Positions 39,342 through 51,827 of a stretch of DNA of 64,000 bases are shown here, piece by piece. The translations under genes and the position numbers were made by a program. The DNA lies in the NCBI RefSeq assembly GCF_009363435.1, contig NZ_CP045354.1, positions 1 to 64,000 of the forward strand. Direction: 5' to 3'. Position 1 is the stretch's first letter; every line of letters starts with the position of its first letter. The notes below the pieces were generated by a model. The model was given only the letters and a program-made list of their open reading frames with translations. It made no database searches and was not told where the DNA came from. The DNA is from Labrenzia sp. THAF82. Its GTDB lineage: Bacteria > Pseudomonadota > Alphaproteobacteria > Rhizobiales > Stappiaceae.

Positions 39342-39374
39342 GTACTGACTGCTTCCCTGCGCCTGCCAACTCCT

Positions 39375-39402
39375 CCCCGGGTATTGCTACCCGGGGACTT
39401 TC
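39375..39402 (+). terminator. Terminator of the cellulose operon
   Basis: A perfect 9-bp stem (CCCCGGGTA/TACCCGGGG, loop TTGC) is followed by ACTTTCT, 33 bases after the last stop. Confidence 0.8.
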
Positions 39403-39664: not shown

Positions 39665-42600
39665 ATGACCCAGAACAACGCAGGGGATCTTGGGATACAA
39701 AAGGGGGAGCGCCGCCAGCTCACTGCCCTCTTCTATGATCTGGTTGGTTCGACATCCATGGTCACGAATATGGACCTGGAAGACTACCGGGAAGTGCAGC
39801 AGGCGCTGCACCAGGCTGCCCACCATGCCATCGCAGGGCATGGCGGCCATCTCGATCTTTTGATGGGCGATGGCGGTTCGGCCTATTTCGGCTATCCGAT
39901 TGCAGACGAAGATGCGCCTCAACGCGCCGTGGCTGCGGGTCTCGCGATCCTGAAAGAGCGTGCTGACATCCAAAAACGCTTTGATTGCGATATTCAGGTC
40001 AGGGTTGGTGTCGCCACGGGACCAGCTGTTTCAGGACCCGCGGGAAGCGGGGCGCTGGCGGACCGGGAGGAAATCATCGGCATTGCGCCCACGCTTGCCG
40101 CCCGCATTCAAGGCATCGCACAAGTTGGGACCGTAGCCGTTTCAAACGCCACCTACCGGGCAACGCGGCGCATCTACCATTATGAAAGTCTCGGTGCCCA
40201 TTCCCTGAAGGGGTTCGATCAACCGCAAAGCCTCTGGCAACCTCTTGGGCGCCGCGAGACAGTTGACCGGTTTGAGAAACTTCGGGACGCCGGACAACCA
40301 TTTCTGGCAAGACGAGATGAGCTGGAGGAAGCGACCGACCGGTGGCAACAAGCTTCCCACGGCGAGGGCCAGGTGCTCTACGTTCATGGCGAACCCGGGA
40401 TTGGAAAGTCCCGGCTGTCGTTTCAGGTTGCACAGCAGGCCCGGGATGAAGGAGCACATCTTCTGGATTTCCAGTGCGAACCTGAGTGCCGTGACATCCC
40501 GTTTTCGCCCTTTGTTAAAAGTCTGCGTGCTGAAATCAGAAGGTACGACCCTTCCTTTGATTTCGAAACGCCTTCAGCTGAGGCCATTGCAGACGTTCTG
40601 TCCCTTCCAGGAAATCAGTCGCCAGAGTTTTATAAAGCACTTGCGTTTCTGCTGTCGCCTTCACCACAGCAAGATGACGCTGACCCGCATCCTGCCTCTT
40701 CTGTCGACACGCTGGTTGATGCAGTTATGGCCATTGCCAGTGCAAAGCCCTGTGTCATCAAACTTGAAGACCTGCACTGGGCCGACAGCCAGACGATTGA
40801 GGTGCTGGAACACCTCCTCGACCGGATTGCATCAGCTCCGGTCTTCATCGTGGTGACATCGCGCGAGCGGCCCGAACCTAGGTGGACCGAACTTCCTCAC
40901 TTTTCCAAGCTGCGCCTGTCGCGACTGGGTGAAGACAGCATCATTGAATTGATCGGAAACGTTGCAGGGGCTGCAGCATTGTCACCGCGCCTGGCCCACG
41001 CCATTGCTGCGCGTTGTGAGGGCGTACCCTTGTTTGCCGAAGAACTGACGCGCTTCGTGGTAGACCGCGGCGCGGAAAAAATGTCGGACGAGAGTGCCTG
41101 GGAGTCCCTCTTTGATTCAGAAGAGACCGCCAGCCTTCAAGATCTGCTGGCTGCGCGGCTAGCAGCGTTGGGCAAAGCCAAGATCGTCGCCCAGGCCGCA
41201 AGCGTGATCGGCAGAAGTTTCAATATTCTGACGCTTGTTGCTCTGCTGGCATCTACCGGCACACCGGCTTCTGCGGACGAAAGCCTCAACCAGCTCATGG
41301 CGGGCGGTTTCATCGAAAAGCATTCAAACGAGGCGGAACCGGCATACCGTTTCCGGCACATGTTGCTGCAGCAGGCCGCATATGCCGGACTGTTGCGCGC
41401 GAACCGGCGCACATTGCACACAGCCCTCTACAGAATTGCGACAGGTAACGAAGCCAGCGGGCAACCGTTTACCAGTGCCGAGCTTGCGGTTCACGCAGAG
41501 CAAGCCAGAATGCCCGTCGCGGCAGCCCGGCACTACATTGACGCTGCCCGATCTGCATCTTCCCAGTCTGCACTCAAGGAAGCGCGAACACATTTGACCC
41601 GTGCCCGCTCAATTGCCGAAAAGATCAGTGACAAGGCCGTTGCCGCTGAGCTTGAGCTGGAAATCGTCAAACTGCTCGGTCCAGTTGTTGCCACGATGGA
41701 TGGAACCGGTTCGGAGGAAGCATCAGCTCTCTACCAACGCGGCGTGGAGCTTTTGCATGAAACGCCCGAGACCCATCGTGCGACCGGGTTTCCGCTCTAT
41801 TGGGGTTGGTGGTTCACAGCCGCAAATTTCAAGGAACAACGCGAACGGGCTGAAACCATTCTGAGCGATCTGACGGGTGTCAACGACAAGGAAATCGAGC
41901 TACAGGCCCACCATTGCCGATGGGCTACCGCGTTCAATCTTGGCAATCACAATGATTGCCTGGAGGCCATATCCAAAGGGCTTGATCTTTATAGCGAAGA
42001 TGAAGCGCTGGAACACAGAACCCGATATGGTGGCCACGATGCCCGAGTTTGTGGTCTCGGCGAAAAAGCCTTGTCCTCCTGGTTCATTGGGCAAACGGAA
42101 TCTGCCGTTTCTCATATGGAACAATCGGACGCCTGGGCCAGGCACATTGACCATGTCGGCAGCAACTGTCACGCGCTTGATATCGGCATCATGCTTCATC
42201 GTTACAGGGGTGATGTCGACCGGGTGGCAAGTCTTGCAAGGCGTATGAAAACAGCAGCCGTGGAGCACGACCTCAAATCACTGGAGGCCAAGAGCCTGAT
42301 CTTTGCAGGCTGGTCACAGGGAATGTCGGGAGACCCCGAACGTGGTCGCGCCAACCTGACAGAAGGTTTGTCCATTCAACAGGAAATCGGCACGGAAGAA
42401 GATTTTCCCGTTTATCTTGAGATGGCAGGCGAACTCGACGCAATGCTGGGCCGGTTTGACAACGGCTTGGCCGTTTTGAGCTCCGCGATTGAACGCGCTG
42501 AAGCAACGGGCCATGCCTTCTGGCTTGCGGAACTCTACAGGCGCCGCGCCCGCCTTGGTGCCAGAGCCGGATCGGGAGCAGACCAGATTCTGACAGACCT

Positions 42601-42796
42601 CGCCAAGGCCGAAGATGTCGCCTTGAATCAGAATGCAAAAGTACTGGTCTTACGGGCCCTCGCAGACTTGGTGATGCTGCAGCCTGACAAAGCAACACCA
42701 GGACATTTGGAGCGGGCGCGGCGCATTCTGCAGGAATTGGAACAAGGTAGCGAAAAAGCTCGCATATCCGCCCTTTTGGCGAGCCGCCTGAGCTGA
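39665..42796 (+). CDS. Cyclase-like/AAA ATPase/TPR signalling protein
   Basis: A 1043-residue cytoplasmic protein: class III nucleotide cyclase-like domain (about 18-190), STAND-type ATPase (about 215-560; Walker A GEPGIGKS at 242-249, Walker B region KLEDLHWAD) and a helical TPR-like C-terminus. Both metal Asp (Asp25, Asp69) are kept, but the Lys expected before MGDG is Leu65, and the transition-state Asn is Thr143 (TxxxR). The cyclase is therefore probably inactive or changed. It lies 4 bases before the YcaO gene, so it likely serves as a sensor or switch for that pair. Confidence 0.88.
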   Translation: MTQNNAGDLGIQKGERRQLTALFYDLVGSTSMVTNMDLEDYREVQQALHQAAHHAIAGHGGHLDLLMGDGGSAYFGYPIADEDAPQRAVAAGLAILKERADIQKRFDCDIQVRVGVATGPAVSGPAGSGALADREEIIGIAPTLAARIQGIAQVGTVAVSNATYRATRRIYHYESLGAHSLKGFDQPQSLWQPLGRRETVDRFEKLRDAGQPFLARRDELEEATDRWQQASHGEGQVLYVHGEPGIGKSRLSFQVAQQARDEGAHLLDFQCEPECRDIPFSPFVKSLRAEIRRYDPSFDFETPSAEAIADVLSLPGNQSPEFYKALAFLLSPSPQQDDADPHPASSVDTLVDAVMAIASAKPCVIKLEDLHWADSQTIEVLEHLLDRIASAPVFIVVTSRERPEPRWTELPHFSKLRLSRLGEDSIIELIGNVAGAAALSPRLAHAIAARCEGVPLFAEELTRFVVDRGAEKMSDESAWESLFDSEETASLQDLLAARLAALGKAKIVAQAASVIGRSFNILTLVALLASTGTPASADESLNQLMAGGFIEKHSNEAEPAYRFRHMLLQQAAYAGLLRANRRTLHTALYRIATGNEASGQPFTSAELAVHAEQARMPVAAARHYIDAARSASSQSALKEARTHLTRARSIAEKISDKAVAAELELEIVKLLGPVVATMDGTGSEEASALYQRGVELLHETPETHRATGFPLYWGWWFTAANFKEQRERAETILSDLTGVNDKEIELQAHHCRWATAFNLGNHNDCLEAISKGLDLYSEDEALEHRTRYGGHDARVCGLGEKALSSWFIGQTESAVSHMEQSDAWARHIDHVGSNCHALDIGIMLHRYRGDVDRVASLARRMKTAAVEHDLKSLEAKSLIFAGWSQGMSGDPERGRANLTEGLSIQQEIGTEEDFPVYLEMAGELDAMLGRFDNGLAVLSSAIERAEATGHAFWLAELYRRRARLGARAGSGADQILTDLAKAEDVALNQNAKVLVLRALADLVMLQPDKATPGHLERARRILQELEQGSEKARISALLASRLS

Positions 42797-42800
42797 TGGG

Positions 42801-43994
42801 ATGGATGCAGTCAGCCCAAATCTGGAACTGTTTGACGAAATCAGCGCGATATGCCGCAATTCGCCGACTTCGAAGCTCTCGCGGCGCTTTAGCGCTGACG
42901 AGTACCTCTCCCGTTTAAAGCCTCATCTGACGTCCTTCGGCATTTCGCGGCTGGCAGACGTCACCGGTCTTGATCGTATTGGCGTTCCGGTTGTCCAGGC
43001 CGTCCGACCGTTGGCGCGATCGAACGCCGTCAACCAGGGCAAAGGTTTGACCCTTGCGGAGGCTGCCGTCAGCGCAATCATCGAAGCTCTTGAAACCTTT
43101 GCCTGCGAATCGCCTGATCAAATCGGTGACAGAGCTTCTCCAAACGAGATTTATGGGCACGCGGCAATCCACAAGCTTTCCTGTCACTTACCGCCAAAGG
43201 TGGCTGAAGAGTGGATGGAGAACCCAATTGCGTTTATGCGCGGAATTGAACCGATGTCGCAGGATATCGTCAGCGTGCCCGCTGCCCTGATCAGTACGGA
43301 TTATACGCCATCCTCATCTCATGCAGTGTCGCCTTTCGTCCGCACCACGACCGGACTGGGGGGTGGCGGAAGTCTGGAGGAAGCAATTCAGCATGGGTTC
43401 CTCGAGGTTCTGGAGCGGATAAGCACCGAAAGAGCCATGACAACGCATGGGTTTTTTGAAAAAAACCGCATTGCGCCCGACACGAATGTCGACGCCGGCA
43501 CAGACGAGCTCATTATGCAGGTTCAAGATGCCGGTCTGTTGTTTGCTGCCTATGAGTGCCCACCGGTTGGGCGCTTTCCCGTCGTCTGGGTCAGACTTCT
43601 CGATGAACGTGCCTCAGCAACTTCTCTTCCATTTGCCGCGGACGGTTTTGCCTGCCGCCCCACCTTCAGCGGAGCACTGCGAGCAGCGCTTTTGGAAAGC
43701 ATTCAGACACGCGCGTCAGTGATATCAGGCTCCCGCGAAGACATAACCCGCCGTTCCTATCCAAGAAATCACGATGATCAACTGATCGCCTTCGAACGGC
43801 GGCAAATGAGTAAGACGCCTGCCAATCGTCCATCATTTGCCGGGAACAATTCAGCAGTGAGTGTGAAGGATTTTACCGAAGCGCTGGCAGAGGCAGGTTT
43901 GACCTCGGCCATTGTGCCCGTCCTTGCTCTTGAAGACGTTCCGCTGTTCATCGTCCGGGTGGTGCCGCTGGTCGGCCAGCGTAGGAGGGCATGA
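42801..43994 (+). CDS. YcaO-domain protein (TfuA-linked)
   Basis: ATP-dependent backbone-modifying enzyme: YcaO proteins activate a peptide amide to form azolines or, with TfuA, thioamides. The 397-residue protein keeps the glutamate-rich ATP/Mg sites (AIIEALETFACE, HGFLEVLER, ALLESIQTR), the LDRIGVPVVQAVRP start and the GLGGGGSLEEA loop. The end (VVPLVGQRRRA) lacks a Pro-rich tail. It overlaps the TfuA gene by ATGA. The substrate is unknown; no obvious precursor peptide lies next to it. Confidence 0.9.
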   Translation: MDAVSPNLELFDEISAICRNSPTSKLSRRFSADEYLSRLKPHLTSFGISRLADVTGLDRIGVPVVQAVRPLARSNAVNQGKGLTLAEAAVSAIIEALETFACESPDQIGDRASPNEIYGHAAIHKLSCHLPPKVAEEWMENPIAFMRGIEPMSQDIVSVPAALISTDYTPSSSHAVSPFVRTTTGLGGGGSLEEAIQHGFLEVLERISTERAMTTHGFFEKNRIAPDTNVDAGTDELIMQVQDAGLLFAAYECPPVGRFPVVWVRLLDERASATSLPFAADGFACRPTFSGALRAALLESIQTRASVISGSREDITRRSYPRNHDDQLIAFERRQMSKTPANRPSFAGNNSAVSVKDFTEALAEAGLTSAIVPVLALEDVPLFIVRVVPLVGQRRRA

Positions 43995-44752
43995 TGCTGG
44001 CTAAGCGTCCTCTCGTCGTTTTCATCGGCCCGAGTTTGCCCCCCGAAGGCCTTCCTGAGGCACTCCAGGCCGATATACGGCCACCGGCAGCCCAGGGAGA
44101 CATTGCTGCCGTATCGCTTGAGGCAAAGGACTGCGTCATTGCTCTGATCGACGGTGTCTTTCAAGGAGCTCCGGCAGTCAGACACAAAGAGATCCTCTGG
44201 GCGATCGATCGCGGCGCCACCATTTTTGGTGCGGCCAGCATGGGCGCTCTCAGAGCCGCTGAATTATCGAGCTTTGGGATGCACGGTCGAGGGCTCATCT
44301 ATCGGTGGTTCCGGCGAAATGCCCTTGCACCTGATGACGCTGTCGCGGTCCTTCACACGCCAGAAGAACTCGGTGCTGTCGCAATCACCGATTCCCTTTT
44401 CGATTTGCGCATTCGTTTCAAGCAATTGCGAAAGGAAGGCCAAATCACAGCGTGTCAGGAAAGCGCTCTGGTGACTGCGGCTTTTCAGCTTCACTACACG
44501 GAACGGCACCTGAAAGCCGTGTTGGCTGCCGCTCGGGATAATGGGGCGAACATTTCGATTTCAGATCTGGCGAAGCCCGATTGCACTCAGAAGCAACTTG
44601 ATGCGCAACTTCTACTAGATGAGCTCACCGATCGCCAGAAATCCGGCCTCTGGCCTCTTCCCACACCTGCAGCGGCGTTCGTGCCAACAGACGCGTTTCT
44701 GCAGGATCTCGCAGACGCGGGATTTTCATTGGACAGCTTCTCAGGTGCTTGA
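43991..44752 (+). CDS. TfuA-like protein
   Basis: A 253-residue protein with the TfuA core (ALIDGVFQ, then RHKEILWAIDRGATIFGAA and SMGALRAAEL, about 55-105). TfuA proteins work with YcaO to install thioamides or otherwise supply sulfur, as known from trifolitoxin and thioviridamide-type clusters and methyl-coenzyme M reductase modification. It is translationally coupled to the YcaO gene. No fused second domain. Confidence 0.9.
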   Translation: MMLAKRPLVVFIGPSLPPEGLPEALQADIRPPAAQGDIAAVSLEAKDCVIALIDGVFQGAPAVRHKEILWAIDRGATIFGAASMGALRAAELSSFGMHGRGLIYRWFRRNALAPDDAVAVLHTPEELGAVAITDSLFDLRIRFKQLRKEGQITACQESALVTAAFQLHYTERHLKAVLAAARDNGANISISDLAKPDCTQKQLDAQLLLDELTDRQKSGLWPLPTPAAAFVPTDAFLQDLADAGFSLDSFSGA

Positions 44753-44920
44753 TAGTCTTTTAATAATTCCCCTGCGGAAGGTTCAAACAGCACGCCAAAA
44801 ACATCTTTTTTGATGCTGTGCGGGAAGTGGAGAAACGATTTAGGCGCGCGCGCAACAAGAGATTGTGACCAACACCGGTTTCCAGGCCGGTTGTAAAAAT
44901 ACCGGATTTCAGAGGTTGAA

Positions 44921-46129
44921 TTGAGTATCTATCTCGACCAGGAAACCATCTCACCTGAAACGGGCCGTCTCGGCACCCGGTTTCTTCTCTATCCGCAGGT
45001 GCCGCACCTGGCCGGTTATGAAAAACCGGAAACCGTCTGGATCAGCACGTCGCCGAACGAGATTCAGCCAGGACCGGCTGACCGCCGCATGTATGTGGCA
45101 GATCCGCTTTTTGAAAAGCCTGTTTACGAGTATCCCTTCCAGCCTCCGTTTACGGGCGAACAACACCCGCCGGCAGAAGCGGGGCCAGACGGACATTTCG
45201 ATCATCTGGACCCATCAAGCCGCCAATTTGTCTGCGCCCATGTGTTTGCTTCACTCAGGCGCGTGCTCGACATCTGGGAAAGCTATCTCGGGCATGAGGT
45301 TGTTTGGCATTTCTCGCAAACCTATGAACGGCTTGAGATCATTCCATTCGTAAATTGGAATAATGCCCAGTCGGGATATGGCTACATGGAGTTCGGTACC
45401 GAGTTGAGTGACCGGGAAACGGTCTATCCATATGCCTTGAACTTCGACGTCATCGCGCATGAATTCGGTCATGCGCTCATTTTTGCGGAAATGGGGACAC
45501 CCGTCGGCGGGAACGCCAACCGTGAATATTTCGGTTATCACGAGAGCGTATCGGACCTGATCGCACTCATTTCGCTTCTTCATTTCGACAGCGTGCTCGA
45601 CCGGCTGCTGCGCTCGACCCGCGGCAACCTTCTGACCATGAACGAACTAAACCGGATAGCGGAGTTGTCCGGTGACCGACAGATTCGGACTGCCAGCAAC
45701 GACCGGAAAATGAGCACCGTCACAGACGCCGTGCACGATCTGTCTAAGCCCTTTACCGGCGCGATATTTGATACCCTTGTAGAGATCTATCACCACAATG
45801 CCGTAGACGGAAACCTGGTCGATCTCCCGGAAAGCATATCGCATGACCGGCTGTTCGAGCTCGGCCATCATGAAATCGAGCTGATTGGACACCGGTTTGC
45901 CGATGCCTTCAACGCACGTGAATTTTTGCTGAAATCCGCGCTTGCAAATGCGCGAGACCTCATGGGATCCGCAATCGCACGATCCTGGAGCGCACTCAAT
46001 CCCGACACACTCAACTATGCACTGGCCGGCGCTGCTATTGCCGACCAGTTGGATGCGCTTGGCAATTCTGCTGCCGGGGACATCTTGATGGAAAACCTGG
46101 CATGGCGGGAAATTCTGGTGAGAACCTGA
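44921..46129 (+). CDS. Thermolysin-like zinc metallopeptidase
   Basis: Predicted 402-residue protein with a zinc site HEFGH (about 180-184) and a second block HESVSDLI about 24 residues on, the HExxH...ExxxD plan of thermolysin-type (M4-like) gluzincins. No signal peptide is seen, so it may be cytoplasmic, unlike most M4 enzymes. TTG start with AGAGG 6 bases upstream. It follows TfuA on the same strand after 168 bases and could process a substrate of that system. This link is inferred. Confidence 0.78.
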   Translation: MSIYLDQETISPETGRLGTRFLLYPQVPHLAGYEKPETVWISTSPNEIQPGPADRRMYVADPLFEKPVYEYPFQPPFTGEQHPPAEAGPDGHFDHLDPSSRQFVCAHVFASLRRVLDIWESYLGHEVVWHFSQTYERLEIIPFVNWNNAQSGYGYMEFGTELSDRETVYPYALNFDVIAHEFGHALIFAEMGTPVGGNANREYFGYHESVSDLIALISLLHFDSVLDRLLRSTRGNLLTMNELNRIAELSGDRQIRTASNDRKMSTVTDAVHDLSKPFTGAIFDTLVEIYHHNAVDGNLVDLPESISHDRLFELGHHEIELIGHRFADAFNAREFLLKSALANARDLMGSAIARSWSALNPDTLNYALAGAAIADQLDALGNSAAGDILMENLAWREILVRT

Positions 46130-46170
46130 CATGCCGTCGACAACCTGAATTCCCAAAGGGGGGAAGATAA

Positions 46171-46644
46171 ATGAGCGATCAACTGCCGACCATCCTATCC
46201 ATACCGCCGTATGATCCTGCGGAAATTATTCTCATTGGAAGCAACATTGCCGGCAGCGGCAGCAAGACGGTGGCCGAGGTCAAGATCGAGTCCGGCGGCA
46301 GCCCGGATAGCCGGCTGACCATCCAGTTGATGGACACGGGCGCTGATCAGCAGATCGCATTGATCCGGGCCTATGTTTATGAAGGCAACTATTACGAGTT
46401 GCCGAAGCCTAAAATCATGGTGGTCACGGGTGACGCAACCGATATCCCAGGCGACTACGTTCCCAAAAACCGCAAGCTTCAGTTCTGGCGTATGAACAAG
46501 CTCAACAGAACGACGGAAATCTCGGTAGAAGACGGATTGCTTGAAACACTTGTTCTGGAAGCCAACATGCCTGGTCGAAGGTCGCCAAATTCCTATGCCG
46601 CCAACATGCAAATGGCGCATAAATCTGGAAGGCTGACGTCATAA
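46171..46644 (+). CDS. Unknown protein of the YcaO-TfuA region
   Basis: A 157-residue protein, probably beta-rich, without cysteines, signal peptide or known motif. A strong ribosome site (GGGGGGAAG) precedes the ATG. It lies 41 bases after the peptidase gene, so it is likely cotranscribed with it. It could be a substrate, inhibitor or carrier in the cluster; nothing in the sequence decides. Confidence 0.6.
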   Translation: MSDQLPTILSIPPYDPAEIILIGSNIAGSGSKTVAEVKIESGGSPDSRLTIQLMDTGADQQIALIRAYVYEGNYYELPKPKIMVVTGDATDIPGDYVPKNRKLQFWRMNKLNRTTEISVEDGLLETLVLEANMPGRRSPNSYAANMQMAHKSGRLTS

Positions 46645-46843
46645 GCCCTGCCCTTTAGACACGAATTGCCAAATCGCGCTGAGGTCATCGCAGAAAGCCC
46701 AAAGGGCATGGCTACCGATGGCTATTCGGCAATCAAGATAGCAATGCCAAAAACGTCTTCTGGCAGGTGCGTGTGCTCTTTGACGCTGACACTACAGCCC
46801 GCACCAGCCCAGAAGCATTGAGAACGAGGAGGATCAAGTCGCG

Positions 46844-47251
46844 ATGTCCGATGACAAAAAGCCTTTTTGCGGAACCTATGAAGTCGGTCAGATCAGGATC
46901 ACGGCACTCGACGGCCAGGAAAGCCTTGCCAAAGGCGTTGTGCCAGGCGAGATGACTGTGACGTCGGCTGAATTCTCCTATGTACCCAACACGCCTGACG
47001 AAACCGCTCTCGACGTTTCCATCGAGGAGTTTGCGACCTTCAACAGCTCTGGTGACAGGATCGTTCATATCGAGGACCTGAAGCTGCTCTTACAAAGCGA
47101 CACCAGCTATTGGGCAACTGAAGACGTCAAAACAGCCTTCACAGTCGAAGACGCTTTCGAAATGTCCGTCAAAATGCGTGCAGATAAGTTGTCTCTAGCC
47201 CCAGGCCGTCTCTACGTCCGTTTCCATTGCGAAAAAGGCAGCGAGGCGTAA
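46844..47251 (+). CDS. Second unknown protein of the YcaO-TfuA region
   Basis: A 135-residue acidic protein, probably beta-rich, with two cysteines (Cys9 in KPFCGTYEV and Cys130 in VRFHCEKG). GGAGGA lies 10 bases before the ATG. No family is recognised. It closes the plus-strand run and meets the partner-switching operon head-on at 47325. Confidence 0.6.
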   Translation: MSDDKKPFCGTYEVGQIRITALDGQESLAKGVVPGEMTVTSAEFSYVPNTPDETALDVSIEEFATFNSSGDRIVHIEDLKLLLQSDTSYWATEDVKTAFTVEDAFEMSVKMRADKLSLAPGRLYVRFHCEKGSEA

Positions 47252-47324: not shown

Positions 47325-47663
47325 TCAGGAAATCGTCAGTTCGAGCGCGGGGTGCAGGCGTTGAAGGTTGCGGAGGGACTTGGATTGCCAGGGGATGCTC
47401 TTGGAGCCAAGAACGCGGACGCCGACTTCCGGTTGTTTCCGGATCTCGATTGTGAATTTCGCAAAGAGGTTGATGCCGGAACTGTTCAAGAACTCAAGAC
47501 CGGTCAGATCAAGCGTGATGAGATCGGGTTTGGACCCGAGTACGGAGTTCATGATTTCAAGTATCGGCGCATAGGCTTCCGTGCCTGAAAGCCGCATGGT
47601 GCCTTCATAGTGGATGGACGCACCTTCAGTCCAAACGCGGTAATCGTTGGTGCTGATTTCCAT
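47325..47663 (-). CDS. STAS-domain antagonist (slr1659-like)
   Basis: A 112-residue anti-sigma-antagonist-type protein. The phospho-switch site is LEFLNSSGINLF (Ser61/Ser62), and the strand-helix plan covers the whole chain. In partner switching such a protein is phosphorylated by the GHKL kinase and dephosphorylated by a SpoIIE-type phosphatase; both lie immediately upstream. Last gene of a five-gene minus-strand operon. Confidence 0.82.
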   Translation of the reverse strand: MEISTNDYRVWTEGASIHYEGTMRLSGTEAYAPILEIMNSVLGSKPDLITLDLTGLEFLNSSGINLFAKFTIEIRKQPEVGVRVLGSKSIPWQSKSLRNLQRLHPALELTIS

Positions 47664-47694
47664 GTTGGTATCTTCCTTTGGAATAAGTCAGCGA

Positions 47695-48240
47695 TCAGGA
47701 AAGTCGCAATGAGGCAAACGTAGTCAGCTTTACGCCTTCACTTACATGCTCGCGGTGGAAAGACCAGCCCAATTTGGCTTCGTAATCGCTCATGAGCGTA
47801 AGCAGGCCCAGGCCTGAGCCGGTCGAGTCGGGATTGAGGGCATTTTCTTCGATTTTCTCCAACAAGAGCTCACCGGGTTCGCGCTCCAGAAGTTCGCGCA
47901 GAAGCTCCTGGAAACGAGACGCGGTTTCTTTGTCGATCTTGTTGATAATTTGAATCTCAAACGTTTCACCCTGGAGGCTGCTGTCGATGGCAATGTCACC
48001 GCCATATCGAAATTTGACCGCGTTCTCGAGGATCTCGTTGATCATGTAGCTGATGCTGTGGCGTGCATCGACCGGATCAACTTCTCCGGGGCATGCCCGG
48101 CTGAAATACTCGCCAATGAAATCCGATGTCACGCCGCAATGATGCCAGCTGAGTTCCAATGGCTCGGCCATCAGCGTCAGGCAAAACCGCGTCGCGTCGC
48201 CACCGTTTGAAGAGTGAGTATGTCCAAAATCTTCAGCCAT
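47695..48240 (-). CDS. GHKL serine kinase (slr1658-like), canonical copy
   Basis: A 181-residue ATP-binding protein. The N box INEILENAVK (Glu69, Asn73) and G2 loop TGSGLGLLTL (140-149) are intact, as expected for an active anti-sigma-type serine kinase. It lies 31 bases before the STAS gene and 3 bases after the phosphatase gene. Confidence 0.82.
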   Translation of the reverse strand: MAEDFGHTHSSNGGDATRFCLTLMAEPLELSWHHCGVTSDFIGEYFSRACPGEVDPVDARHSISYMINEILENAVKFRYGGDIAIDSSLQGETFEIQIINKIDKETASRFQELLRELLEREPGELLLEKIEENALNPDSTGSGLGLLTLMSDYEAKLGWSFHREHVSEGVKLTTFASLRLS

Positions 48241-48243
48241 GAC

Positions 48244-50652
48244 CTACCTGTGCTTCAAAACCACGAGCGTGATATCGTCAAACACCTTGTATTCCCCGAT
48301 ATGCATCTTGACGTCATCGATGACGGCTTCAGCGATGCCCTTGGCCGATTTGTGGCGATTGCTGTGGGCACTGTCGCTCAACCGGTCCAGGCCAAACATG
48401 TTTCCGGCCGCGTTTTCAGCTTCCGTGATACCATCGGTGTGAAGGATCAGAATATCGTCCGGACCGAAACTCAAATCCAATGTTGCGACAAATGCGGAGA
48501 TATCTGCTTCCAAACCGACCGGGAACCCGAGATCCATAGTGTCAATGCGTTCGGTCTCGCCGGTTGATCGGATGATCAGCACTTCTTCATGCTGACCGGA
48601 CAACGTCACCTTGCCATCAACGTAGTCGACAAATGCAAGGGTCAGATGTTTGTCGGATTTGGTCCGCGTGATGTTCTTGTAGACGGCCCGGTTGAGCACA
48701 TCCAGAAACGCGATCGGATCCTTGTCACCCTTTTCCTGCAAGGCGCGGGCAACTGACTGAACCATCAGCATCAGCACGCCACTCTCCAAGCCGTGGCCGG
48801 TCACATCGCCGATACCCACCTTGATGTGTTCACCATCAAAGAGAACATCGTAGTAATCGCCGCCCACCTCATCGGCCGGTTCCATGAAGGCGGCAATCTC
48901 GATTTGCGGAATGATCTCGAGCTCGCTGCGACGTGGCAGCACCATCTCCTGAATGCGTTTGGCGACATCCAGTTCTGCGCCCAGACGCACATTCTCCGAC
49001 TTGAGCCGCTTGTTAAGCGCACCAATTTCCTTGTTCGCGGTTTCGAGCTTTTTCGTTCGCTCCTCAACCAGGTTCTCAAGGTTTTCGGTATGGAAACTGA
49101 TTTCTTCGGCCATGCGGTTGAACGCAAGACCGGCAGCTGCCACCTCATCGCGGGTCGGGATATCAACCCGGACGGAATAGTCCTTGTTCTGCAGCGCACG
49201 TGCTGCGCCGGCCAGCTGTGACAGGCCTTTGGTGATCCGACCGGAAATGGCGTAAACGGCAACAGTCACGATTACCAGACTGATCAGAAGCGCCGCGATC
49301 TGCCAATAAACGATCCGCTCCGTCGCCTCGGACAATTCATGCTGTACAGCCGTCAACGGTGCATAGATTTCGTCCTTGGCAACCATGAAGCCAAGGGTCA
49401 GATTTTCAGAGACAATCGTTTCGCCATTCCAAAGATTGATGGGCGAGAGTTCCTTCAGAACAACGATATATCCTTCACCCGTTTCTTCGTTGAAATCGCC
49501 ATCGCCGCCGAGCGTTATGGAATCGATTACCGTGCCTGTATTGTGCGGCAGTTCAAGATTTGCGACCTCGGGGAAACGGCTCTTCCCGAGGAGCCGATCG
49601 ATCCCGGTCACGCCCTGACCTTCACCACCTACAGAGACAAGACCAAGCGTTTCGGCACCGGCCTCACTCACGGCAATGACGTTTCCTGCCGACGACGTAA
49701 GAAAGCCGAACCCGGTCTCAGCGATCTTTACATTCTCAACCAGATTGGAGAGCTGATCGAGCGTGATGTCGACAGCCGCCATGCCAGCGACATCCGAACG
49801 GTCTGCTGTCCAGAGCGGGTAAAAGAAGCTGACTATGCGAGCGCCGGTGATCGCATCGATATATGGATCCGTGCCAACGATATCGCGGTCAACCGGCCGA
49901 TTGGCCGGGTCCTTGATCCAGCTTTGCCAGCCTTCATAGACGCCAGGAAAGAAGAAATCCCAGAAGTTGTCTTCGTTGTGGCCGGGATAAAGCTTGTCGA
50001 ATGTCTGCGCCTGATCCGTATAAGGCGTCGTGCGCATGATCGGCTTGTCTTTCGGGCCGACATAATACATCTGCAGTTTCGGCGACCCGGTCTTCAGGAT
50101 ACCGGGTGCAATCAGGTTGAAAGCGGAGCTGTCAGAAATCTGTGCCTCGACCTCAGGCAGCGGATTGCCCTCGTCGTCCAGCAGATACCCCCAGACACTG
50201 ACAACGGATTCCCCCGGTGAATTCTGTGACCAGCCGGCTTGCGGATTAAAAACAAGTTTGTCGCCAAGCTTGGGGTCTGCTTCGACAGTCCTGCCGACAT
50301 TGGTGCCGGTCTGAGGATTGTCAATCAACGTCTGCATGGCACCGCCAAGCGCTTCAACTTCGGAAAAAACCTGATCGAGCAGCAGATCGGTTCTGAGCGC
50401 CGTCGTGTCGATATATGTCCTCAGGTACTCTTCCGTCGCGCTGGTGAGACCGGTCGCGACCTTCTCGGTCGCGTCGTTGGACAAACGTTGCACATTCCAG
50501 ATGGCAACGCCGCCGGCCAGCATGAGATCGAACAGAACCGCCGCACCGACGACCGCAATGAATTTGGCCCGAAAACTGTGCCTCGAAAACCGGCCAACTG
50601 ATTGCCCGTCCTGCGGCTCCGGAGTTTCGGTCCCTACATGCGTGACACTCAT
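48244..50652 (-). CDS. Membrane sensor phosphatase: dCache-HAMP-SpoIIE
   Basis: An 802-residue membrane receptor. Helix 1 (about 30-51), an extracytoplasmic dCache-like ligand domain (about 60-400), helix 2 (about 430-452), HAMP, a coiled coil, and a PP2C/SpoIIE phosphatase domain (motifs EVGGDYYDV, GIGDVTGHG, HTDGITEA, FDDITLVV). The ATG at 50652 overlaps the stop of the methyltransferase gene (ATGA). It would dephosphorylate the STAS protein(s) on an external signal. Confidence 0.93.
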   Translation of the reverse strand: MSVTHVGTETPEPQDGQSVGRFSRHSFRAKFIAVVGAAVLFDLMLAGGVAIWNVQRLSNDATEKVATGLTSATEEYLRTYIDTTALRTDLLLDQVFSEVEALGGAMQTLIDNPQTGTNVGRTVEADPKLGDKLVFNPQAGWSQNSPGESVVSVWGYLLDDEGNPLPEVEAQISDSSAFNLIAPGILKTGSPKLQMYYVGPKDKPIMRTTPYTDQAQTFDKLYPGHNEDNFWDFFFPGVYEGWQSWIKDPANRPVDRDIVGTDPYIDAITGARIVSFFYPLWTADRSDVAGMAAVDITLDQLSNLVENVKIAETGFGFLTSSAGNVIAVSEAGAETLGLVSVGGEGQGVTGIDRLLGKSRFPEVANLELPHNTGTVIDSITLGGDGDFNEETGEGYIVVLKELSPINLWNGETIVSENLTLGFMVAKDEIYAPLTAVQHELSEATERIVYWQIAALLISLVIVTVAVYAISGRITKGLSQLAGAARALQNKDYSVRVDIPTRDEVAAAGLAFNRMAEEISFHTENLENLVEERTKKLETANKEIGALNKRLKSENVRLGAELDVAKRIQEMVLPRRSELEIIPQIEIAAFMEPADEVGGDYYDVLFDGEHIKVGIGDVTGHGLESGVLMLMVQSVARALQEKGDKDPIAFLDVLNRAVYKNITRTKSDKHLTLAFVDYVDGKVTLSGQHEEVLIIRSTGETERIDTMDLGFPVGLEADISAFVATLDLSFGPDDILILHTDGITEAENAAGNMFGLDRLSDSAHSNRHKSAKGIAEAVIDDVKMHIGEYKVFDDITLVVLKHR

Positions 50653-51827
50653 TTTGGTTTCCGTCCCGATGCGACCCAAATCGGCCAGCCTGCATATCCT
50701 CGTGGATGCTTGGCCGCGAAGATATGGTCCTGGAAACCCTGCCTGAATTCGCGGATCTGCTCTTCACTGTCACCACGCTCGACAGCCATCTTGCCGGCGT
50801 AGACATCTTCCCAGGACTGGATAATGTCGGCGAAATCCTGGGGATCGCCGTCCAGGTTGCTCACCATGAATGATTCCATCTGAATGTCTTCAAGGCCTGC
50901 ATCGATCAGGTACCGCCGGCTCTTGGGGCCAAGTTCGATATCCATGTTGAAATGGGCCCAAAGCCGCGCAACTTCATTGTAGGTGCGCTGGATTGATTCC
51001 GACCTCGGCTCACCCAGACAATGGGAGTTTTTCTCGTTGGTGATGTAGATGCGGCCGCCCGGCTTGCAGATACGCAGCAGCTCCTGAAGGATCAGTTCAG
51101 GCCGATCGAACACCTGAAGGGAATGGCGGCAGGTGACGAAGTCGAACTGGTCGCTTTCCAGCAGCATTTCGGACGCATCACCAAACACATAGTCGATGCC
51201 GCGAATGCCGAAATCCGTCGCGACCTTGCGCGCATAGTCGAGACTGGACCGACTGTGATCCAGAGCCACCAGCCGATCGGGCTGAAATTCCTTTTGCAAG
51301 AGAACCGCGAAATCCCCGATACCGCAGCAGATGTCTGCCACCTGCAATCCGGGTTCCAGGCCATGGCGCTGCAAGATGGCCCGTTCATGGCGCCATGTCA
51401 GTTTGGTCTGCGTGCGCAAAATCGGGATAAAGCCACCCTCTTCAAGGAATGTCTGGCCTGGATAAAACTCGTTATCGTATTCCCCGACGGTGATATTTTC
51501 GGACATGGTCTCAAGCACCGCGAATTTGCGGGTGGCCCAACCGACCACGCTCGAGGTTGTCACGTGAACTTTCAGATCGCTGCGCCCGCGCACCAGGTCC
51601 AGAATCTTGCCGGCGAAGGCATGAAAAGCGACATTGTTCATGCGCACCAAGCGGCGAACATTGACATAGAAGCGCCCACTGACGCTGGAAACGGAGCTTT
51701 CAAGCGCGGAAATGCAGCTGTTCATTTCCTCGCTGCGCTGCGGCCTCAAGCTGCCGTGCAATGAAAATTCCTGGTCGTTTTCGTTGAAGTTCCACTGAAA
51801 CCCTTGCGAAATACTGTCAGCAATCAT
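50649..51827 (-). CDS. STAS-like domain fused to a SAM methyltransferase
   Basis: A 392-residue two-domain protein. Residues 1-120 resemble the slr1659-type STAS fold, but the phospho-acceptor site has become RMNNVAFHAF (Asn65/Val66 in place of Ser-Ser). Residues about 140-390 form a class I methyltransferase (VADICCGIGDFAVLL, DASEML and LLRICKPGGRIYITNE). The substrate is unknown. It overlaps both neighbours by ATGA, so it is tied into the partner-switching operon and is its likely output enzyme. Confidence 0.85.
   Translation of the reverse strand: MIADSISQGFQWNFNENDQEFSLHGSLRPQRSEEMNSCISALESSVSSVSGRFYVNVRRLVRMNNVAFHAFAGKILDLVRGRSDLKVHVTTSSVVGWATRKFAVLETMSENITVGEYDNEFYPGQTFLEEGGFIPILRTQTKLTWRHERAILQRHGLEPGLQVADICCGIGDFAVLLQKEFQPDRLVALDHSRSSLDYARKVATDFGIRGIDYVFGDASEMLLESDQFDFVTCRHSLQVFDRPELILQELLRICKPGGRIYITNEKNSHCLGEPRSESIQRTYNEVARLWAHFNMDIELGPKSRRYLIDAGLEDIQMESFMVSNLDGDPQDFADIIQSWEDVYAGKMAVERGDSEEQIREFRQGFQDHIFAAKHPRGYAGWPIWVASGRKPK

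Follow-up and report, generated by a model that had tools for sequence, protein, structure and literature searches.

What do a YcaO enzyme and its partner TfuA act upon when their genes stand beside those of a metallopeptidase and two small proteins? The question is raised by a cassette of six open reading frames (ORFs), all on the plus strand, at positions 39665–47251 of the DNA analyzed here, the first 64 kb of the 6.4-Mb single-contig genome of Labrenzia sp. THAF82 (hereafter the window). An earlier note, made from the letters of this DNA, had proposed a signal-controlled system that modifies and then cuts a protein or peptide, with one of the small proteins as substrate. Comparison of related loci supports this modify-and-cut scheme and makes it probable, in our view, that the cassette encodes a pathway of the type that yields ribosomally synthesized and post-translationally modified peptides (RiPPs). 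The 157-residue protein would be the precursor, YcaO and TfuA would modify its tail, most likely by installing a thioamide, the peptidase would release the product, and a cyclase/AAA protein would exert control. The cassette looks like a widespread but overlooked system that would modify and then cut the tail of a small protein.

The ORF calls and the sequence bear out the compact arrangement described in the note. The first gene (39665–42796) encodes a 1,043-residue protein, likely a sensor or regulator, with a class III nucleotidyl-cyclase-like domain and an AAA_16 ATPase domain. A 4-base gap separates it from the gene of YcaO, an ATP-dependent backbone-modifying enzyme (42801–43994; 397 residues), which overlaps that of its partner TfuA (43991–44752; 253 residues) by ATGA. 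The peptidase gene, with a TTG start (44921–46129; 402 residues), follows after 168 bases and encodes a likely maturation protease. The gene of the 157-residue candidate precursor (46171–46644) lies 41 bases further on, the purine-rich GGGGGGAAG standing just 5' of its ATG, and is followed after 199 bases by that of a 135-residue protein (46844–47251).

Conservation of the cassette

The window peptidase was searched in 87 genomes of the family. It gave a match at E ≤ 0.001 in 16 of them, the window's included, and stretches of 7–19 kb from the 15 others were read. Genome G033 has an additional weak match, and in G048 the peptidase gene is in two pieces. In all 15 loci, TfuA and YcaO are encoded beside the peptidase (in L033, YcaO is a fragment at a contig end), and an ORF of the 157-residue type, found by tblastn, ORF call, or profile, or by eye in L034, comes after it. 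A TfuA search of the same 87 genomes was positive in 24: 16 have the peptidase in cis, and in the eight others (L118–L125) the profiles find no peptidase and no precursor, a large cyclase/AAA-profile protein being near in five of the eight.

A collection of 84,980 species was then scanned with the peptidase alignment, and the best 80 of 169 relatives were kept. With the window and the 15 family loci (L021–L035) they made 96 loci, to which iterated profiles were applied. Seven of these (L021, L022, L024, L025, L027, L028, and L029) were removed as duplicate or near-identical, leaving TfuA and the peptidase together in 68 loci and the peptidase alone in 21. Every one of the 68 has a precursor homologue close to the peptidase, recognized by profile in 67 and by eye in L034, whose homologue is 470 residues long and clusters with those of L101, L109, and L116. 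YcaO and the cyclase/AAA profile each matched in 67 of the 68, the exception being L101 in both cases; its stretch of 6,020 bases stops short of YcaO. None of the 21 peptidase-only loci has YcaO, precursor, or cyclase/AAA protein by profile. The order and strand of YcaO, TfuA, peptidase, and 157-residue protein are kept in 66 of the 67 loci with a precursor match, L101 being counted among them although its stretch does not extend to YcaO. In a quick tree of 87 peptidases, arbitrarily rooted, reaching no further than the best 80 relatives and flagged by the program for long branches, a single branch (SH-aLRT 100) splits the 66 TfuA-linked sequences from the 21 unlinked ones. The closest named relatives of the window in this tree are Roseibium.

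We also sampled 199 genomes drawn evenly across the order, again including the window's own. TfuA occurs at 35 places in 29 of these genomes. The peptidase profile matched at 23 places, 12 of them with E < 1e-100; the other 11, with E > 1e-20, are in frames of at least 579 residues and are presumably ordinary M4/M36 enzymes. TfuA is encoded just upstream of all 12 strong peptidases. Ten of the 11 matches to the precursor profile lie behind a strong peptidase, and for the two strong peptidases without a precursor, the contig breaks off 377 and 22 bases after the gene. The eleventh match, in G268 (L126:5495–5641, minus strand), is a 48-residue remnant of a window-type precursor tail, more than 100 kb from the TfuA of its contig and apparently a decayed copy.

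The co-occurrence of all six genes, which the note had suggested surveying, proved partial. The peptidase and 157-residue genes are kept beside YcaO-TfuA well beyond the genus, and the cyclase/AAA gene, which the note had counted as part of the system, is a near-constant neighbor, whereas the 135-residue gene is not kept. The 135-residue protein was recovered by profile in eight of the 68 loci, all of the Roseibium group, with identities of 28–34% in five more distant homologues. It appears to be a lineage-restricted accessory, and its poor conservation argues against it as a second substrate. Of the two candidate substrates, the 157-residue protein is the likely one.

The peptidase and the candidate precursor

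The assignment of a metallopeptidase can be narrowed to the thermolysin type. The window protein matches Peptidase_M4 (PF01447) at E 0.0028 with 18.6 bits, under the Pfam gathering score of 22.4. Its AlphaFold2 model (pLDDT 88.6) retrieved thermolysin and other M4/M36 enzymes with Foldseek (28 matches at E ≤ 0.001, the best being 4tnl at E 1.3e-6). Six positions that we take to be the thermolysin catalytic residues, H180, E181, and H184 of HEXXH, the downstream E208 and D212, and the catalytic H272, are kept in 42 of 42 aligned homologues. By model and alignment, the peptidase has a predicted thermolysin fold with complete catalytic residues. Fold and residues are shared with thermolysin and the M4 peptidases, from which the protein differs in its score under the family cut-off. 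By eye, no signal or propeptide was seen: there is no evident hydrophobic stretch at the N-terminus, where about 17 residues precede the first invariant block. A profile search of PDB sequences with the leader or the peptidase returned nothing useful.

Neither the 157- nor the 135-residue protein of the window has a Pfam or NCBIfam match at E 0.1. The AlphaFold2 model of the former is β-rich, with pLDDT values of 84–94 for the ten-residue blocks from 11 to 130, except 91–100 (73). Confidence falls past about residue 130 and is below 50 at residues 139–150. We distinguish a predicted leader domain (residues 1–128; 46171–46554), delimited on the predicted structure, and a putative core region (residues 129–157; 46555–46641), delimited on low model confidence and tail conservation. 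No confident PDB relative of the leader fold was found (best Foldseek E 0.045, TM ~0.16), hence no assignment is made. With its predicted folded leader and its tail, the protein looks like a RiPP precursor of the large-leader type. The note, seeing no classic precursor, had suspected that this might not be a normal RiPP cluster; with this candidate, the system reads as RiPP-like. Taking the longest ORFs, the precursors of the 68 loci range from 148 to 470 residues. They fall outside the usual search range of 20–120 residues, which is a search setting and not a biological requirement.

Tails of the window type follow the motif N[LM]PGxRSPxxYxxxMx[LM]xHR[SG]G[RK]L. In 47 aligned tails, chosen by pattern match, the residues that never vary are the N, the P at position 8, the Y, the H, and the last G; no Cys, Ser, or Thr is invariant, and the residue preceding the invariant Gly is S in 21, G in 21, and D in 5. 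Seven further tails (L048, L055, L063, L065, L069, L070, and L074) are by eye close variants of this type. Between the window and six Roseibium loci, 26 of 29 tail residues are kept versus 71–81 of 127 in the leader. Silent changes are frequent in leader and tail alike, and the tail has a pN of 0.07–0.08 versus a pS of 0.54–0.76. In a seventh comparison (L038), the protein is identical in both parts.

Ten of the 68 precursors carry tandem-repeat tails. The units are (V/I/L)SGAR in L030, L031, L033, and L117, YSGGKA in L032, RASGQRV in L094, SRAAMA in L101, SRAVMA in L109, and SRAMMQ in L034 (27 RAMM units) and L116 (four). In the order sample, repeats are found in eight of ten precursors (VSGSR twice, VSGSK, VSGAK, VSGAR, SGANL, YSGGKA, and GRSMM), and the window and G109 have the conserved tail. 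Many units within an array are distinct at the DNA level: 7 of 7 in each of L030, L031, and L117, 7 of 8 in L033, 6 of 6 in L032, 10 of 10 in L101, 9 of 12 in L109, 11 of 27 in L034, 2 of 3 in L094, and 3 of 4 in L116. As codons differ and residues barely vary, the simplest reading is that selection acts on every unit, most strongly suggested for L030, L031, L117, L033, L032, and L101. Core types were labeled by hand; L095 was assigned to SGx and L115 to RAxM despite their irregular tails, which are otherwise counted as "other." The type tracks both trees, with four changes on the peptidase tree and three on the YcaO tree; the minimum is three, and none of 200 shuffles was as low. The YcaO tree omits L095 and L115, since YcaO and TfuA match within a single open frame there (L095:1173–4004 and L115:6554–8935).

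A pentapeptide-repeat reading of the VSGAR arrays was rejected: of ten homologues scanned, L030 alone reaches PF00805, at E 6e-4 and just under the cut-off, and units of five, six, and seven residues in the same position elsewhere argue against such a fold. Repeat-type homologues gave further NCBIfam matches within or close to the repeats, such as one between L034 and an acyltransferase model (E 8e-8, far under the cut-off); these were attributed to composition. A rough look at other small genes behind the precursor found mostly unconvincing ORFs.

Modification, release, and control

We propose that residues ~1–128 of the precursor would form a folded leader domain recruiting the enzymes and that the C-terminal tail would be the core, present as one conserved copy in the window and as short repeated units in sister clades. 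YcaO with TfuA would modify the backbone of this core. The peptidase would then separate leader and core and, where relatives have repeats, cut between these as well. The residues before which thermolysin-type enzymes cleave are V, I, L, F, M, Y, and A; every repeat unit has one of these at a constant position, which is suggestive only.

The window YcaO matches PF02624 (E 1.6e-43) and scores above the cut-off of TIGR00702, and TfuA matches PF07812 (E 1.1e-38) and is the sole TfuA match in its genome. Two observations favor a thioamide: TfuA goes with the peptidase, and the 47 tails have no invariant Cys, Ser, or Thr. In the adjacency of ycaO and tfuA and, as judged by homology and prediction, in a neighboring precursor with leader and core, the cassette resembles thioamidated RiPPs of the YcaO-TfuA type. 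As for TOMM or linear azole peptides, the aligned tails lack a conserved Cys, Ser, or Thr in the core, and no E1-like or C protein is among the ten window proteins scanned. No constant partner of that kind was seen either: in a clustering of picked ORFs, no non-core neighbor occurs in more than 13 of the 68 loci, though no per-locus profile search was aimed at E1-like or C proteins.

YcaO enzymes catalyze several reactions, and core types differ strongly between clades, so the same precursor might receive an azoline, an amidine, or another backbone change. We hold this to be rather unlikely: TfuA stands beside all 12 strong peptidases of the order sample, the tails disfavor azolines in having no invariant Cys, Ser, or Thr, and L055 encodes, behind its precursor, a sulfate-permease-type protein that has cluster-mates in L070 and L074. 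Where it has been studied, TfuA is tied to thioamides (PMC6511847, PMC8939145; here and below, papers are cited for the parts available to us).

A second alternative dispenses with the RiPP. The substrate of YcaO-TfuA would be a folded cellular protein, altered at its conserved tail and left whole as methyl-coenzyme M reductase is, and the peptidase would clear unmodified or damaged copies. The motif shared by 47 loci resembles a functional site more than a variable natural product, and no transporter is a constant partner in the 68 loci (a general absence of exporters was considered and dropped, since ABC genes occur in some of them). Moreover, the closest named thioamidation models are those for the McrA glycine of methanogens, TIGR03266 for YcaO and NF033432 for TfuA, although the window proteins score under both cut-offs (162 bits versus 235 for TfuA). 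In McrA-glycine thioamidation the substrate is an enzyme subunit, and we know of no protease involved. The position of the peptidase here is as tight as that of YcaO, and the replacement of the tail in sister clades by tandem repeats of constant peptide units is hard to reconcile with a single modified site. We therefore regard this alternative as unlikely.

The cyclase/AAA protein would control the pathway. In the window it matches Guanylate_cyc (PF00211, E 2.3e-10) and AAA_16 (PF13191, E 2e-21). Against the TOMM kinase/cyclase model TIGR03903 (TOMM_kin_cyc), it scores 323 bits for a cut-off of 706 (705.75) over profile positions 275–1265 of 1267, as a relative under the cut-off without the N-terminal part of the model. 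Twelve loci, among them L030–L033, L035, L094, L095, and L117, have a shorter cyclase-profile protein. The best NCBIfam match of those of L030 and L032 is TIGR04510, "putative peptide modification system cyclase," far under the cut-off. In the window domain, what we take to be the two metal-binding Asp motifs are kept, and Thr stands where the usual, presumably transition-state, Asn is expected; with this replacement the protein may sense a nucleotide rather than make one. The motif patterns failed on many other rows of the alignment.

A Crp-type regulator (cNMP_binding and HTH_Crp_2, all six Pfam-scanned) is encoded directly upstream of the cyclase/AAA gene, and divergently, in six of the 13 loci that share a neighbor cluster defined by a cNMP-binding domain (L055, L063, L065, L069, L070, and L102). 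Behind the precursor, on the opposite strand, L055, L070, and L074 have a 737–817-residue member of the cNMP cluster. The one scanned of the three, from L055, is a sulfate permease that also has a STAS and a cNMP domain. In L077 and L085 a cNMP domain accompanies an ABC membrane domain, and in L043 a cNMP-type ORF stands next to an ABC protein. These neighbors favor control by a cyclic nucleotide and would be compatible with a demand for sulfur.

A stress or anti-phage defense module, with a peptidase triggered by the cyclase/AAA sensor and the small protein as its target or inhibitor, is very improbable: a STAND-like ATPase joined to a cyclase, PADLOC matches of that domain to Pycsar cyclases (best E 3.5e-10), a patchy distribution, and peptidase relatives on plasmids would suit it, but the Pycsar match is to a generic cyclase domain, whose usual transition-state Asn is Thr in the window, none of the remaining five cassette proteins has a PADLOC match at E 0.01, and the repeat arrays and YcaO-TfuA would be left unexplained.

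Several points weigh against the RiPP-type pathway that we prefer. The wider loci were picked by peptidase similarity and capped at 80 of 169, and only the family TfuA search and the order sample escape such a choice. L079 is rearranged, and in L095 1,752 bases with a cyclase-profile ORF lie between peptidase and precursor. The tails of four of the 68 loci (L035, L095, L102, and L115) are neither of the conserved nor of the repeat type. RAxM repeats (SRAVMA, SRAMMQ) are without the glycine of SGx repeats, so that no modification site is common to all, and the tail is single-copy in the window lineage, so that cutting between repeats says nothing direct about the window. The scores of YcaO and TfuA under the thioamidation cut-offs and the lack of a constant transporter count here as well. 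As to control, five of the six Crp loci fall in one clade of the peptidase tree and are thus closely related, no Crp neighbor is among the ten window proteins scanned, and the frequency of such neighbors stands without a control count.

Distribution, neighbors, and relation to known systems

Peptidase relatives were found on 124 plasmid records, 115 of them from Rhizobium, with neighbors read in two; phages gave one weak partial match. Two PLSDB plasmid gene tables annotate the peptidase as "hypothetical protein," and likewise the precursor where it is listed. On a Mesorhizobium plasmid (L139:9177–15937), the cassette lies near the conjugation genes TraD and TraA, in line with spread by transfer. 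The 21 peptidase-only loci (among L083–L114) come from Actinoplanes, Clostridium, Phycisphaerae, and others; by eye, the 12 of them inspected have no recurring partner.

Pfam scans of one member from each of seven among the next neighbor clusters identified a LysR regulator, common dehydrogenases, and an enoyl-CoA hydratase, one being without match; the same sampling gave an oligopeptide-type ABC ATPase (9 loci) and the cNMP-binding-domain cluster (13 loci). In the window, a terminator-like hairpin (39374–39397, plus strand; 10-pair stem, 7 GC pairs) lies between an upstream TPR gene and the cassette; the evidence for it is weak because the region has 12 such sites versus 9.4 expected by chance. 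On the other side, at 47325–51827 on the minus strand, are an slr1659/slr1658-type regulator pair, a methyltransferase with an slr1659-like N-terminus (NCBIfam), and an ORF resembling, by eye, an RsbU-type phosphatase.

Other YcaO genes were met on the way. The window's genome has a second one at ~3.83 Mb (L037:9554–11005, minus strand), SagD/TOMM-like, with 97 bits against TIGR03604, under the cut-off. L118–L121 and L125 have another YcaO-TfuA architecture, with a TfuA ORF of ~450 residues and a large cyclase/AAA-profile protein (that of L118, the only one scanned, is a kinase/cyclase relative) and without the peptidase; L118–L121 have an additional ORF of 296–312 residues, NmrA-like by eye. 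In a third architecture (L122–L124), a protein of 412–413 residues follows TfuA, and an ORF of 138–140 residues precedes YcaO in L122 and L123.

Among known systems, YcaO-TfuA makes thioamides from a repeated core in the thiovarsolins of Streptomyces varsoviensis, which share with our loci the enzyme pair and precursors with imperfect short core repeats (PMC6511847). The cluster described here differs in its thermolysin-like peptidase, its folded leader of ~120 residues, its cyclase/AAA protein, and its occurrence in other phyla. A large Ser/Thr kinase goes along with NHLP-Burk precursors (TIGR03795; PMC2887384). Compared with TIGR03903 and NHLP-Burk clusters, TfuA is found here and no cyclodehydratase in its place, and the NHLP, Nif11, and NHLP-Burk models (TIGR03793, TIGR03795, and TIGR03798) match neither the window precursor at E 0.1 nor ten homologues at E 1. 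A survey of TfuA counted 2,326 unique clusters, 70% in Proteobacteria and more than 500 in Rhizobium, and sought precursors with RiPPER at standard settings (PMC8120280). The RiPPER range is 20–120 residues (PMC6511847), which would miss the 157-residue precursor family. The available text of the survey contains none of the words "protease," "metallo," "repeat," and "adenylate," and "peptidase" once, for a prolyl endopeptidase (PMC8120280). In the open-licence PMC literature searched, we found no description of a YcaO-TfuA cluster with a thermolysin-like protease, an absence of limited reach, as some YcaO/TfuA papers might describe related clusters.

More tentatively, the repeat-type loci may represent a new RiPP class in which a globular, β-rich leader carries from about 3 to 27 near-identical short units (VSGAR, YSGGKA, SRAMMQ, and others), each modified in its backbone by YcaO-TfuA, released by a dedicated protease, and controlled by a cyclase-family sensor, with a cyclic-nucleotide-binding regulator in some lineages. 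Such precursors would be multi-copy and "pro-hormone"-like and, in the absence of a constant transporter, their peptides might act inside the cell or as signals.

If the RiPP-type reading is right, a set of Pseudomonadota YcaO-TfuA clusters, corresponding to 12 of the 35 TfuA places in the order sample, would gain a likely substrate and a dedicated protease. It would also provide a testable rule, namely that in a row of YcaO, TfuA, and thermolysin-like protease the next ORF is the precursor. It would likewise predict the core of every locus and open a way to products in nitrogen-fixing and marine bacteria.

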